Shown one piece after another: positions 7,018 to 60,864 of a stretch of DNA of 64,000 bases (position 1 is its first letter; every line of letters begins with the position of its first letter). Under the pieces are notes generated by a model. The model was not told the DNA's origin and ran no database searches. It saw only the letters and a program-made list of their open reading frames with translations. The DNA is from Bacteroidota bacterium. Lineage in GTDB: Bacteria > Bacteroidota > Bacteroidia > B-17B0 > Aurantibacillaceae. The translations under genes and the position numbers were made by a program. Where the stretch lies: assembly GCA_021156365.1 (NCBI GenBank), contig JAJNDK010000004.1, forward strand, positions 124,001 to 188,000. Direction: 5' to 3'.

Positions 7018-9525
7018 TTATTTAGTGCCCTCAAAGCTCAGTTTAAAAACAGTTCTGCGGTTCTGTTTGTGCTCTGCATCCGAACAATCCACACCGTTCA
7101 GGCAGCGGTTGCTGAGCTGTGTTTCACCCAGGCCGGTTGCCAGCAGGCGTTTTTTGTTCACCCCTTTTTTCGCCAGGTATTCCACCACGGCATTGGCTCT
7201 CTTTTGCGAAAGCTCCATATTAAAATCATCTCCGGCCAGCGCATCGGTATGCGACTGTACTTCCAGCATGATCTTCGGGTTTTCGGTAAGCGCCGTATAT
7301 GCTTTATCAAGGATAAGCTCCGCTTCTTTCGGGATCACAAAGGAGCCGGAAGGATAGTAGATGTTCTCGATAATGCTTATTTCTTTTTTCGTTGCGTTCA
7401 GCTTGATAGCTCCGATCCAGGGATCCGCGATCTCTTCCGAAACCTCGCTTAGCTGGGTACTTTCGGTAGGCAGCAGGCGGTACGAGAATTTGCCGAACTG
7501 ATCTTTGGAGATCTCTTTGATCACATGGTTTTGCTCGTCGGTAATGATGATACGGTTATACGTAATGTTCTTGCCGTCTTCCTCATCGATCTTGATCATA
7601 TAGCTCTGAGCAGGCAGCAGGTTCTTGAAAATGAACAAACCATTCTGATCTGTTTTTTTCGTTGCAACGATCTCGCCTTTTTCATTTACCAGCAATATGG
7701 TAATATTCGATAAAGGCTCTTTCGCTCCGTCGGCCGCAAGGATCTTACCCTTCATATCGATCATCATCGGCGCATCGTCAATGGTCATCAGCGACATACT
7801 CACCGGATCGTTTTTAAGCAGCTCAAAGGTAAAGGAGCCTTTCGGGCCTTTTGTGCTTTTCAGCACTTCCACGCCTTTTTCATTCACCACCACAAAGCTC
7901 TTAATGCCCGAAAGCAGAGTGTTGTCTTCCACATCAAAAGCGAGGAGATAATTTTTATCGTAAGGAAGTTTTTCGAAAATGAATTTACCCTGGTTGTCTG
8001 TGAAAGCAGTATAGAAGATCTCACCCCGCTCGTTGATCAGGTTTATTTTCTTACCGGATACCGGTGTTTTGTTGGCATCATCGGAAAGGATCTGGCCGGC
8101 AAAACGCACCACCACACTTGTTTCTTCTGCTATCCGTCCTATTTTGATGGTCCTGGTAGTAGTGTTCATGTATACATCCTTTACCACTATTTCAAGTGTT
8201 TTTTTATCACCAAGCGGAACAATGCTGCTGAAGTCAGGGTTCTTTTCGTCGTTCCTGTATTTGGCATCTACGCCGTTCACCGTAATGGAGGAGATCAGGC
8301 TTTTATCTTTTACCGATCCTTCCACCACCGTGGAGATCTGCGATGCATATACATTGGCAAAACCTGATCCGTCAATAAACGGAAAGGACAATTTCACATC
8401 CGGCTCATCACTTTCACGGTTGGCTTCGTATAGTTTTTTGGTAACGATATCCAACTGTTGTTTTACCTCTGCATCCGCAGGATTCAGCTTTAGCGAGCGG
8501 CTATAGTCCCCGATGGCTTCAGCCCAGGATGCCAGCTCGCGGTAGCACTCTGCCCGGCGTTTGTAGGCCAGTGCATTTTTTTCATCAAGCAGGATCACCT
8601 TGGTATAATCGCTGATGGCGCTTTGAAACTGGCTTGTTTTTTTATAGACATTTCCCCGCTCGAAGAAACCCTCTTTGAACTCACTGTTCAGCACCAACGC
8701 TTTGTTGAGGTCACCGATAGGGTTCAGGTAGTCCTGTGTGGCGAGGTAGGACTGGCTTCGTTTGTAGAAGACCATGTAATGCTTTGGCTCGTAGGCATCG
8801 CTATTGTCAATATCCACAGCAGTTGTATAGTCCTTTATGGCATTTACATAATCGCCCATGTGGTGAAGGCAGCCGGCGTGATCGTAGAAATACGACTTGA
8901 ATTTCGGCAGTACTTTTTTGTTGCCGTCCAGCTCGTAGTTATACAATAGTTTGATGGCAATAACATAATCGGTATTGGCATCGTTGTACTTTTTCAGGCT
9001 GTCGAGCGCGAGGGCTTTGTAGTAATGTGTGGTATGGTTGTATTGCTCTCTATCCAGGGCTTTGTTGCAGAGATCCACTGCCGTCTGAAACTGTTTCAGC
9101 ATAATGGAACACCAGGCAGATTTGCGGTAGGCTTCAGTATTTTTAGAGCTTTTGGCGATCAGCAGGTCTGCATATTCTTTGCCTTTTTTATAATCTTTCA
9201 GATCGATAGCAATATCAGTGATCTTCAGGTAAAGCAATTTGTCGGAGTTCTTTACACGAAAGGCTGCTTCATAATCTTTCAATGCGTTCTCTTTCTGGTT
9301 CAGCAGCATATAATCACCGGCCCTGCCTAACAGGTACTTGTAGTTGTCTTTTTTCAGCTCAAGGGCGCGGGTGTAGTTATCAATAGCAACTGGGTAGTTT
9401 TTATTCTTTTCATTCTCGCGGGCTAATTTGTAATAGGATTTTGCCGATTGAGAAAAAACAGAGTAGGAGCAAAGGAAACAGAGAGCCAGTGCAAAATAGG
9501 TTTTTATGCAGAGTACTTTAAACAT
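7018..9525 (-). CDS. TPR - carboxypeptidase-regulatory-like - OmpA peptidoglycan-binding envelope protein
   Basis: An 835-residue secreted protein. A signal peptide (about residues 1-25) is followed by about eight TPR units up to residue 365, a short beta region, then at least two carboxypeptidase-regulatory-like beta folds (segments such as TDQNGLFIFKNLLP), and a C-terminal OmpA domain with the peptidoglycan-binding signature (SHTDALAGDDFNMELSQKRA and a final NRRTVFKLSF). The architecture recalls T9SS/gliding proteins of the PorE kind, but it lacks a recognisable PD40 propeller, so PorE is not claimed. It is the first gene of the MlaD operon and probably links the outer membrane to peptidoglycan. 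Confidence 0.82.
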   Translation of the reverse strand: MFKVLCIKTYFALALCFLCSYSVFSQSAKSYYKLARENEKNKNYPVAIDNYTRALELKKDNYKYLLGRAGDYMLLNQKENALKDYEAAFRVKNSDKLLYLKITDIAIDLKDYKKGKEYADLLIAKSSKNTEAYRKSAWCSIMLKQFQTAVDLCNKALDREQYNHTTHYYKALALDSLKKYNDANTDYVIAIKLLYNYELDGNKKVLPKFKSYFYDHAGCLHHMGDYVNAIKDYTTAVDIDNSDAYEPKHYMVFYKRSQSYLATQDYLNPIGDLNKALVLNSEFKEGFFERGNVYKKTSQFQSAISDYTKVILLDEKNALAYKRRAECYRELASWAEAIGDYSRSLKLNPADAEVKQQLDIVTKKLYEANRESDEPDVKLSFPFIDGSGFANVYASQISTVVEGSVKDKSLISSITVNGVDAKYRNDEKNPDFSSIVPLGDKKTLEIVVKDVYMNTTTRTIKIGRIAEETSVVVRFAGQILSDDANKTPVSGKKINLINERGEIFYTAFTDNQGKFIFEKLPYDKNYLLAFDVEDNTLLSGIKSFVVVNEKGVEVLKSTKGPKGSFTFELLKNDPVSMSLMTIDDAPMMIDMKGKILAADGAKEPLSNITILLVNEKGEIVATKKTDQNGLFIFKNLLPAQSYMIKIDEEDGKNITYNRIIITDEQNHVIKEISKDQFGKFSYRLLPTESTQLSEVSEEIADPWIGAIKLNATKKEISIIENIYYPSGSFVIPKEAELILDKAYTALTENPKIMLEVQSHTDALAGDDFNMELSQKRANAVVEYLAKKGVNKKRLLATGLGETQLSNRCLNGVDCSDAEHKQNRRTVFKLSFEGTK

Positions 9526-32134: not shown

Positions 32135-32288
32135 GCCCCTATAACGCAGGAGATGGCAAATAATTACAGTAGTTGTAAACATTACACTGTAGAAAAGGGT
32201 AGTATTAACGTTTTTTAAATCCAGCCTGTTTCTGCATAAAATCTTGTAAACACAGCCCGGAAAACTGAAAATCGCATTCAAAAATGTA

Positions 32289-57576: not shown

Positions 57577-58293
57577 TTAAACGGTTCTCGTAGAAACAGT
57601 AACGATACTCTCGTTCTGAAAATCACTTTCTACAAGCCCGTCTTTCAAGCGAACGATGCGGTGTGCATGGCGTGCGATATCCTCTTCGTGCGTAACAAGG
57701 ATGATGGTATTTCCTAATCTCTGGATCTCTTCAAACAATCCCATGATCTCTACCGATGTTTTGGAATCCAGATTTCCCGTAGGCTCATCGGCAAGGATGA
57801 TAGCAGGCTTGTTGACCAGTGCGCGTGCAATAGCAACACGCTGGCGTTGTCCGCCTGATAGTTCGTTGGGTTTATGTGTCATCCGGTTTCCCAGTCCTAC
57901 CTGTTCCAGTACTTCCTTCGCTCTTTTTTCACGATCCGCTTTTGCTATACCGGAGTATACAAGCGGAAGCGCTACATTGTCCAATGCGGTGGAACGCGGC
58001 AATAAATTGAATGTCTGAAAAACAAAACCGATCTCTTTGTTACGCACTTCGGCCAGATCGTTATCCAGCATATTGGCAACGGAAATATTGTTGAGGATGT
58101 ATTCTCCCGAAGTAGGCGTATCAAGGCAGCCAAGGATGTTCATCAGCGTGGACTTGCCCGATCCGGAAGGGCCCATCAGTGCTACATATTCATTGCGGTG
58201 GATGGAAAGCGATACGGATTTTAATGCGTGGATCTCTTCCGTACCGATCGTATATTGTCGGGCAATGTTTGTGAGTTTGATTATTTCCTGCAT
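57577..58293 (-). CDS. ABC transporter ATP-binding protein (MacB/LolD type)
   Basis: A 238-residue ATPase of the type VII (MacB/LolD/FtsE) group. Walker [11 protein letters not shown]-loop [10 protein letters not shown], signature [15 protein letters not shown], Walker [14 protein letters not shown] and switch histidine in VTHEED are all present. It should drive a MacB/LolC-type permease for lipoprotein release or export, but no permease gene is adjacent. A -7-like box (TAAAAGTA, 58321-58328, minus strand TACTTTTA) lies upstream. Confidence 0.94.
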
Positions 58294-58356: not shown

Positions 58357-58432
58357 AAAAAAAATCCCGCTTTTGAGGGCGGGATTTCGTAAGCCTTTCG
58401 GCTTACAACCTATGAAACACTAACTAAAACCT
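58357..58432 (-). ncRNA. predicted small non-coding RNA, about 76 nt
   Basis: An intergenic transcript predicted from three joined elements on the minus strand: a full consensus promoter (58437-58467), a 5' unpaired stretch of about 26 bases containing GUUUCAUAGG, a 7-bp hairpin with a GAAA tetraloop (GUAAGCC GAAA GGCUUAC, 58406-58389), and a rho-independent terminator (stem AAATCCCGC / GCGGGATTT, followed by eight Ts, ending near 58357). There is no open reading frame longer than a few codons. It is divergent to rprX and lies in front of the ABC ATPase gene, yet the terminator would stop read-through into it. I do not recognise a known RNA family; 5' and 3' ends are estimates. Confidence 0.7.
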
Positions 58433-58436
58433 GAGG

Positions 58437-58467
58437 CAAATATATATGATTAATCATCGTTAACAAA
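58437..58467 (-). promoter_or_regulatory. promoter of the predicted small RNA
   Basis: Minus strand: TTTG at 58467-58464, a spacer of exactly 19 bases, TATATTTG at 58444-58437. This is one of the best promoter matches in the window. Confidence 0.75.
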
Positions 58468-58528
58468 ATTTAAATCAGTTCAAGTTTGTTAAAATTTCTT
58501 AACAATCTGTTTTACAAGCAGTAAAAGT

Positions 58529-58545: not shown

Positions 58546-60144
58546 ATGTTTAAGCAGAACACCAGTGTTATCACGATTTTAGCCAGTATTTCCATCCTGG
58601 CACTCATCGGGGTTCAGCTTTTCTGGATCAATAATGCAGTTGAACTACGAGAGGAAGAATTCCGGGGCTCCATAAATGAGGCCCTTAACAGCGTAGTGGA
58701 AAAACTCGACAAAACTTCTGCAGCAGCCAAGATCAAAAAGAACATACGCCTGCGCAAACAAGGCATTCGCACCTATCCGGCCGACTACTCCATCAAAAAA
58801 GTGCTCACCTCCGATACGATGAAAAACAAGGTGAACGATATTTTTGAAAAGGATAAAGTAAATGTAAAGGTCTTCGAAGAGCTCACTACCGATTCGAACG
58901 GAGTGGTGACCACTACCTACAATAAATACGAAGGCGATACCATGGAAGCGAGTGGCATTCTCGGACCCTTATCATCAGATGAGCTGCAGGGCACCAACGA
59001 TGTGGAAAAACTGAAATTAGAGCTGATCCAGCAGCGTACGGAAATGGTGCACGATCTTTTTGAAGAGCTGGTAAGCATCAATATCTATAAGAATTACAAG
59101 CCGCAGATAGATACGGTGCTGTTAGACTCACTGTTGAAATCGGAGCTGTTGTATAAAGGGATCAATTCCAATTACATTTACCGGATCAGTATTGATGAAA
59201 CCAGGAATATCAATGACTTTATCCACTCGGTGCATGAATGTGATACCACGGGTTGTTATTTTAAGATCAACCTGGCGCCCAACAATGCATTTATCAAGCC
59301 TACCTTTCTTTCGGTATACTTCCCCAAACACAAGACCTATATATACAAAACCCTCTGGATCATGCTGACGGTATCAGGGGTTATAATAATTATCCTCACT
59401 TTTTCGTTCTATTATACGATCACGACCATCCAGAAGCAAAAGAAACTATCGCTGATCAAGAACGATTTCATCAGTAACATGACACACGAGTTTAAAACAC
59501 CCATTTCCACTATATCGCTGGCCAGTGAGTTCCTGAACGATGACAGCGTGATGAAAACCCCGGAAAAGGTGGGACGTTATGTAAAAATGATCAAGGACGA
59601 GAACAAACGGCTAAGTGTGTTAGTGGAGAGTATCCTGCAGACCGCTATCCTCGATAAGGGCGATTTTAAGCTGAAGATCACCGATATCGACCTCCATGAG
59701 ATCATCAACCAGGCCATTCAAAACATTCAGTTACAGGTAGAACAGCGAAAAGGCACAATAATTCCTAAATTTTTTGCCACTAATCCCAAAATATTTGCAG
59801 ATAAGGTACATATTACTAATATTGTCTTCAATTTAATGGACAATGCGATCAAGTATTCCAAAGAAGTACCTGAAATCACCATTACCACTGATAACCGGAT
59901 TGATGGCATAGTTTTTTCGGTGAAAGATGCAGGTGTGGGTATAACCAAGGATAACCTGAAAAAGGTTTTTGATCAGTTTTACCGGATACCAACCGGCAAC
60001 GTTCACAATATCAAGGGCTTCGGCCTCGGTCTCAGTTACGTGAGAGCTATTGTGATCAAGCATGGAGGTGATATTTCGGTAGAAAGTGAAATTAATAAAG
60101 GAAGTACATTCAGGGTGTTCCTTCCGTATAAACAAGAAGAATAA
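58546..60144 (+). CDS. rprX: sensor histidine kinase, RprX-like
   Basis: A 532-residue membrane kinase. Membrane spans at about residues 10-28 and 268-290 enclose a periplasmic sensor of about 240 residues. HisKA phospho-acceptor H314 in SNMTHEFKTPISTIS, then HATPase boxes N (FNLMDNAIKYS), G1 (VKDAGVGI), F (FDQFYRI) and G2 (GFGLGLSYV). Together with the next gene it resembles RprX/RprY of Bacteroides fragilis, a system linked to envelope stress and tetracycline response. The inducing signal is unknown. Confidence 0.85.
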   Translation: MFKQNTSVITILASISILALIGVQLFWINNAVELREEEFRGSINEALNSVVEKLDKTSAAAKIKKNIRLRKQGIRTYPADYSIKKVLTSDTMKNKVNDIFEKDKVNVKVFEELTTDSNGVVTTTYNKYEGDTMEASGILGPLSSDELQGTNDVEKLKLELIQQRTEMVHDLFEELVSINIYKNYKPQIDTVLLDSLLKSELLYKGINSNYIYRISIDETRNINDFIHSVHECDTTGCYFKINLAPNNAFIKPTFLSVYFPKHKTYIYKTLWIMLTVSGVIIIILTFSFYYTITTIQKQKKLSLIKNDFISNMTHEFKTPISTISLASEFLNDDSVMKTPEKVGRYVKMIKDENKRLSVLVESILQTAILDKGDFKLKITDIDLHEIINQAIQNIQLQVEQRKGTIIPKFFATNPKIFADKVHITNIVFNLMDNAIKYSKEVPEITITTDNRIDGIVFSVKDAGVGITKDNLKKVFDQFYRIPTGNVHNIKGFGLGLSYVRAIVIKHGGDISVESEINKGSTFRVFLPYKQEE

Positions 60145-60162: not shown

Positions 60163-60864
60163 ATGAATACAGAGAAACTAAAAATACTATTAGTGGAAGA
60201 TGATCCGCACCTCGGCACCCTGTTGCAGGAATACCTGGAGGCGAAAGGATATGATACAAAGTTAGGCAAAGACGGTAAGGAGGGTTACGACCTTTTTTGC
60301 AAACAGGATTATGATCTTATCCTGCTGGATGTGATGATGCCGGTAAAAGACGGGATCACCCTGGCGAAAGAGATCCGGATGAACAATAAACACGTTCCGA
60401 TCATTTTCCTCACGGCTAAATCCATGAAGGAAGATACCCTCGAAGGATTTAATGCCGGGGCGGATGACTATATGACCAAGCCTTTCAGCATGGAAGAGCT
60501 CCTGGTACGTATTCAGGCGGTATTGCGCCGCAGCAACAAATCGATCTCCATCAACAACGAACAGGTAGAGTTTGTGCTGGGAAGCTATAAATTCAACAGC
60601 GAAAAACAGATCCTGGAGCACAATGGCATTCAGCAAAAACTGACCACCAAAGAATCAGGCTTATTACGTTTGCTCTGTGTGCATATGAACGATGTACTGG
60701 ACCGGAATTTTGCCCTGAAAACCATCTGGCACGATGATAATTATTTCAATGGCCGCAGTATGGATGTATATATTGCCAAGTTGCGTAAATACCTGAAAGA
60801 CGACCAGAAAGTGGAGATCATCAATATCCACGGAAAAGGCTTCAAACTGCTGGTAAATAACTAA
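60163..60864 (+). CDS. rprY: response regulator, OmpR family, RprY-like
   Basis: A 233-residue response regulator. The receiver domain has acidic pocket VEDD (residues 11-14), phospho-acceptor D56 in LLDVMMP, and the conserved K in TKPFS. The C-terminal winged helix (LTTKESGLLRLLCVHMND ... IHGKGFKLLV) is of OmpR type. It follows rprX after 18 bases, and a strong terminator closes the operon. Confidence 0.9.
   Translation: MNTEKLKILLVEDDPHLGTLLQEYLEAKGYDTKLGKDGKEGYDLFCKQDYDLILLDVMMPVKDGITLAKEIRMNNKHVPIIFLTAKSMKEDTLEGFNAGADDYMTKPFSMEELLVRIQAVLRRSNKSISINNEQVEFVLGSYKFNSEKQILEHNGIQQKLTTKESGLLRLLCVHMNDVLDRNFALKTIWHDDNYFNGRSMDVYIAKLRKYLKDDQKVEIINIHGKGFKLLVNN

Follow-up and report, generated by a model that had tools for sequence, protein, structure and literature searches.

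A predicted small RNA with an invariant 5′ element encoded divergently from rprXY in two genera of one Bacteroidota family

The region upstream of an rprXY-like two-component system in a Bacteroidota genome carries, on the strand opposite to the kinase gene, a promoter, a hairpin and a terminator, raising the question of whether it encodes a stand-alone RNA and, if so, how such an RNA would act. A sequence-only reading of the 64,000-nt stretch of DNA analysed here (hereafter, the window) had proposed an unrecognised RNA of about 76 nt, with a consensus promoter, some 26 unpaired bases, a 7-bp hairpin with a GAAA loop and a terminator ending in eight Ts (Table 1). Direct reading of the minus strand bears out the promoter: TTTG (58467-58464) is followed by 19 bases and TATATTTG (58444-58437), the consensus in Bacteroidota being TTTG / TAnnTTTG (PMC7366714); a few bases further on stands CAGGTTTTAGTTAGTGTTTCATAGGTTGTAAGCCGAAAGGCTTACGAAATCCCGCCCTCAAAAGCGGGATTTTTTTT. 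Transcription would be expected to start at about 58433, giving a predicted RNA of ~73-77 nt, in agreement with the proposed size. The predicted fold likewise matches the proposal, with 27 unpaired nt at the 5′ end followed by the hairpin (stem GUAAGCC/GGCUUAC) and the terminator stem, and the eight Ts occupy 58364-58357. The folding energy is −26.0 kcal/mol compared with −14.6 (sd 2.8) for shuffled sequences (z −4.0), and none of 200 shuffles folded as well. A generic terminator scan did not list this terminator, the stem and T-run of which are plain in the sequence. The promoter pattern occurs 4 times in the window against 1.8 expected, which is near chance, so that the evidence of one genome by itself is suggestive and falls short of proving a gene; the case rests on conservation.

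Table 1. Positions of the predicted RNA, its parts and neighbouring features (window coordinates unless a locus is named).
Feature	Position	Strand	Basis or remark
Promoter TTTG-N19-TATATTTG, Bacteroidota housekeeping sigma type	58437-58467	minus	sequence
Unpaired 5′ element CAGGUUUUAGUUAGUGUUUCAUA, proposed seed	58411-58433	minus	22/23 positions invariant, n = 4 genomes; predicted P(unpaired) ~0.9
7-bp hairpin, GAAA loop	58389-58406	minus	fold and compensatory changes in relatives
Intrinsic terminator, G+C-rich stem and eight Ts	58357-58388	minus	fold, sequence
rprX-like sensor kinase gene	58546-60144	plus	Pfam HisKA/HATPase_c; adjoins the RNA in 4/4 genomes
rprY-like response regulator gene	60163-60864	plus	NCBIfam NF051850 RprY, 341 bits, under the 370 cut-off
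ABC transporter ATPase gene (MacB/LolD type), outside the RNA unit	57577-58293	minus	not adjoining the RNA in G050
TTAAAATTTCTTAAC, weak form (12/15) of TTAACNTTTTTTAAC, candidate RprY site near rprX	58489-58503	plus
TTAAATTTTGTTAAC, weak (12/15) match to the rprX-upstream box	58459-58473	minus	overlaps the −33 element of the sRNA promoter
Second predicted sRNA (genome G001)	L190 ~8357-8430	minus	same 17-nt 5′ element, unrelated body

The order to which the window genome (G000) belongs consists of one family, 87 genomes of which were examined. DNA searches revealed full-length matches in G001 and G002, from the same genus, and in G050, from another genus. When the 30 nearest family loci were inspected ahead of this kinase gene, the RNA was present in exactly these 4 genomes, and a search for the 23-mer that tolerated up to 3 mismatches found it in none of the other members of the 87-genome set. 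In all 4 genomes, the RNA is divergent to rprX and has its own promoter and terminator, the −7 element reading TACTTTTA in G001, TATATTTG in G002 and TATCTTTG in G050. Nucleotides 2-23 of the RNA are identical throughout the 4-sequence alignment, and this block starts at the transcript start predicted from the promoter. Outside the 22-nt block, 30% of the intergenic alignment columns are invariant; in these genomes, the kinase genes display 66-73% DNA identity, with 50% of codon-alignment columns invariant and a longest invariant run of 8 nt. The hairpin stem takes the forms GUAAGCC/GGCUUAC, GUAAGUC/GACUUAC and GUAAAUC/GAUUUAC and is A/U-rich in G050, its sequence varying while the pairing, the conservation of which the sequence-only reading had put forward as a check, is retained. 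Five pairs are changed on both sides, a signal equalled by 1 of 500 shuffles and abolished when the pairing partners are slid; coming from 4 sequences, the covariation lends modest support to the stem, good without being overwhelming. Each relative has an equivalent but differing terminator, and the 5′ element is predicted to be unpaired with a probability of ~0.9 in the orthologues as well.

The 5′ element also occurs away from rprXY. An exact copy of its 17-nt portion AGGTTTTAGTTAGTGTT was found in an unlinked region of G001 (G001:C19:34410-34426, minus strand; L095, L190), immediately downstream of TACATTTG and ahead of a different hairpin (GCCGA/UCGGC) and a different terminator, AACGGGUUAG/CUAACCCGUU with a U-run, the fold of this second RNA having a z of −3.4. 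Because the 5′ element alone is common to both RNAs, it is likely to be their working part, presumably a seed. Numerous proteins that match no family are encoded around it, in a region that may be variable or mobile.

Could the conserved unit be something other than an RNA gene? That a promoter-like sequence and an unrelated terminator came together by chance might be argued from the frequency of the promoter pattern in the window and from the similar terminators that are common in the family; 22 invariant nucleotides across two genera, the compensatory changes and the second RNA make this explanation hardly credible. A tiny protein-coding gene or a leader peptide, for which the RNA offers the mini reading frame GUG UUU CAU AGG UUG UAA, appears just as improbable: in G050 the frame diverges to GUG UUU CAU AAU AAA AAG UUU UAG, and the conservation ignores codons, with every position of the block invariant and the block ending inside the frame. 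This frame, the only mini-ORF in the RNA, was rejected as a candidate gene since it is not kept in G050. A 5′ leader with an attenuator for the ABC ATPase gene, the terminator being read through under some condition, called for closer attention. The sequence-only reading had held that no gene on the same strand could use the terminator, passing over the ABC ATPase gene, which lies on that very strand and the start codon of which is 63 bp past the T-run in the window, so that such a leader needed to be excluded; in each of the three genomes of the genus, the gene indeed comes next in the same orientation. However, the spacing between the RNA and the ABC gene varies widely among G000, G001 and G002, and an alternative antiterminator pairing is not apparent in the RNA, whose 5′ end is predicted to be open. 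Most informative is G050, in which the RNA is intact and the ABC gene absent, the next gene (L041 3267-4556) being convergent, with its 3′ end facing the terminator. Thus, not every member has a same-strand gene downstream, as would be expected of a cis-acting leader. The RNA appears independent of the ABC gene, with the kinase gene as its constant neighbour, and from these comparisons the leader reading is largely excluded, retaining a small probability. Collectively, the 4 orthologues with their invariant 5′ end and compensatory hairpin changes, the placement beside rprX without the ABC gene and the second copy of the 5′ element support the independent unit that had been proposed, and we consider it highly probable that the locus is an RNA gene in its own right.

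The description of the RNA as unrecognised was substantiated by comparison with Rfam 15, in which the whole window yielded nothing at the gathering score except one tRNA. The RNA stretch itself, searched at E up to 10, gave chance-like matches only, none of them to a family by the name of FopS or GibS, and neither the relatives nor the second RNA of G001 matched any family. The locus is very likely a genuine sRNA gene that had not been listed before, and its 5′ element is unusually clean. A scan for TTTTAGTTAGTGTTTC followed by a T-run in one genome for each of 84,980 species, which covers exact patterns of the rprX-adjacent RNA as distinct from second RNAs of the G001 type, recovered the known relatives and otherwise matches without the RNA unit. 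Exact-pattern matches in viral contigs all lacked the promoter/hairpin/terminator unit, and none were found in phage and plasmid collections. Across the family, sequences within 2 mismatches of the pattern were, exact copies aside, no commoner than those of a reversed control, and the one-mismatch matches, which were without RNA features, were rejected. Also discarded were covariance-model matches in 5 other genomes of the class (E 0.001-0.008 per genome, 395 genomes), which have no promoter and are at chance level, and DNA matches in ~20 further family genomes, nearly all of which correspond to a generic AAATCCCGCC terminator or other short stretches. Near-identical terminators of the form AAATCCCGCC...GGCGGGATTTTT recur across the family (e.g., L012-L037), sometimes more than once per genome. 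An ungapped search of the class produced one further match (L196), where there is no sRNA. As far as exact and near-exact patterns tell, the range of the RNA is two genera of one family.

How might the RNA act? We propose that the housekeeping sigma factor directs transcription of a ~75-nt stand-alone RNA away from rprXY, up to an intrinsic terminator of its own, that the unstructured 5′ end of this RNA, CAGGUUUUAGUUAGUGUUUCAUA, would serve as a seed pairing in trans with mRNAs, most likely at translation start regions, and that this pairing would repress the mRNAs without Hfq, while the hairpin and terminator would protect and define the RNA. Consistent with such target sites, UAUGAAACACUAACUAAAACCUG, the complement of the 5′ element, resembles an A-rich start region with AUGAAA. 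The closest parallels come from Bacteroides thetaiotaomicron, in which GibS and FopS use a single-stranded 5′ seed for pairing with translation start regions (PMC7366714, PMC11697453). The arrangement common to these RNAs, in which an intrinsic terminator comes after a conserved 5′ stretch that is left single-stranded, is also found here. Like the present RNA, GibS is intergenic, has a highly conserved single-stranded 5′ seed followed by hairpins and an intrinsic terminator, and has been described as acting by a mechanism in which Hfq does not figure (PMC7366714); it differs in its two seeds, its promoter, which is non-canonical, and its open 5′ part, which is longer (1-38) (PMC7366714), whereas the present RNA has ~75 nt, one hairpin and a canonical promoter. 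FopS shares with it the canonical housekeeping promoter, the single-stranded 5′ seed with a terminator and the occurrence of a shared seed on diverse bodies, but is present in 12-15 copies per genome in Bacteroidaceae (PMC11697453) compared with one or two here, and a FopS copy has been reported in a phage (PMC11697453). In addition, the FopS family is said to have been deposited, unlike the present RNA, which has no Rfam match. In enterobacteria, OmrA and OmrB similarly combine a common conserved 5′ seed with different middles and are tied to an OmpR-family two-component system, but they depend on Hfq and are themselves proven targets of OmpR (PMC12692685); here, Hfq was not found, the phylum is different and the parallel is an analogy only. 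The best reading, which likens the RNAs by their described architecture, is that the present RNA would work like GibS and FopS of Bacteroides.

A search for Hfq (PF17209) gave no match in G000, G001 or G050, although the same model matched 5 of 14 control genomes. Together with the GibS/FopS-like architecture and the open 5′ element, this favours a trans-acting, base-pairing repressor. We infer transcription, mRNA pairing and repression alike from the sequence, and judge it probable, leaving any role of RprY out of that estimate, that the RNA is an Hfq-free repressor of this kind, with a 5′ seed, a housekeeping promoter and its own terminator. Alternatively, the main role of the 5′ element might be to bind and sequester a protein, either a regulator or an RNA-binding protein, instead of pairing with mRNAs. 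Such a role would fit an invariant 22-nt stretch that exceeds a minimal seed and the outcome of the target search, in which antisense 15-mers with up to 2 mismatches were no commoner than in a reversed control and revealed no shared target, a null result that says little about shorter seeds. There is also precedent in RbpB of Bacteroides, a protein that binds FopS RNAs in their 5′ part (PMC11697453). Protein-sequestering RNAs, however, usually repeat the motif or show it in a stem, whereas the element here is single and predicted to be unpaired, and the known Bacteroides sRNAs with this architecture base-pair (PMC7366714, PMC11697453); a mainly protein-binding role is improbable, although less so than the leader. 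The L196 match (1480-1517) comes from G175, which lacks the sRNA; there, a MotA/TolQ/ExbB-like gene has the complement of the 17-nt element just ahead of its start codon. This is probably a chance match, though it illustrates the form that a target site would take.

Going by a non-exhaustive view of the literature, few trans-acting sRNAs of Bacteroidota have been described outside gut Bacteroides. The RNA described here combines a sharply bounded, invariant 5′ element with a constant neighbour in the genome, and there is a natural second RNA in which that element alone recurs; together, these features would make the seed function testable by changing 17-22 nt. The base-pairing repressor reading suggests that regulation in the style of GibS and FopS, without Hfq, extends to environmental Bacteroidota.

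The sequence-only reading had pointed to the position beside a two-component system as typical of regulatory RNAs. Adjacency to rprX is indeed kept in all 4 genomes, and the link to the system amounts to this conserved adjacency. A box, TTAACNTTTTTTAAC, with half-sites 10 bp apart precedes rprX by ~70 bp in 25 of 26 family loci (L042-L067) and looks like a putative RprY autoregulation site; RprY of P. gingivalis binds its own promoter (PMC3646045). The weak form of this box at the sRNA promoter, TTAAATTTTGTTAAC, is not kept in G001 and G050 and can be called a box only tentatively; RprY may control the sRNA, although this is speculative. A broader scheme, in which a lineage-specific sRNA family would place a 5′ seed module on unrelated bodies, with a core copy beside rprXY and an extra copy in a variable region of G001, and would form an Hfq-free RNA arm of the RprXY response, seems doubtful to us, though not far-fetched. 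The best copy of TTAACNTTTTTTAAC in the window, matching at 14 of 15 positions, lies at 32205-32219 on the plus strand.
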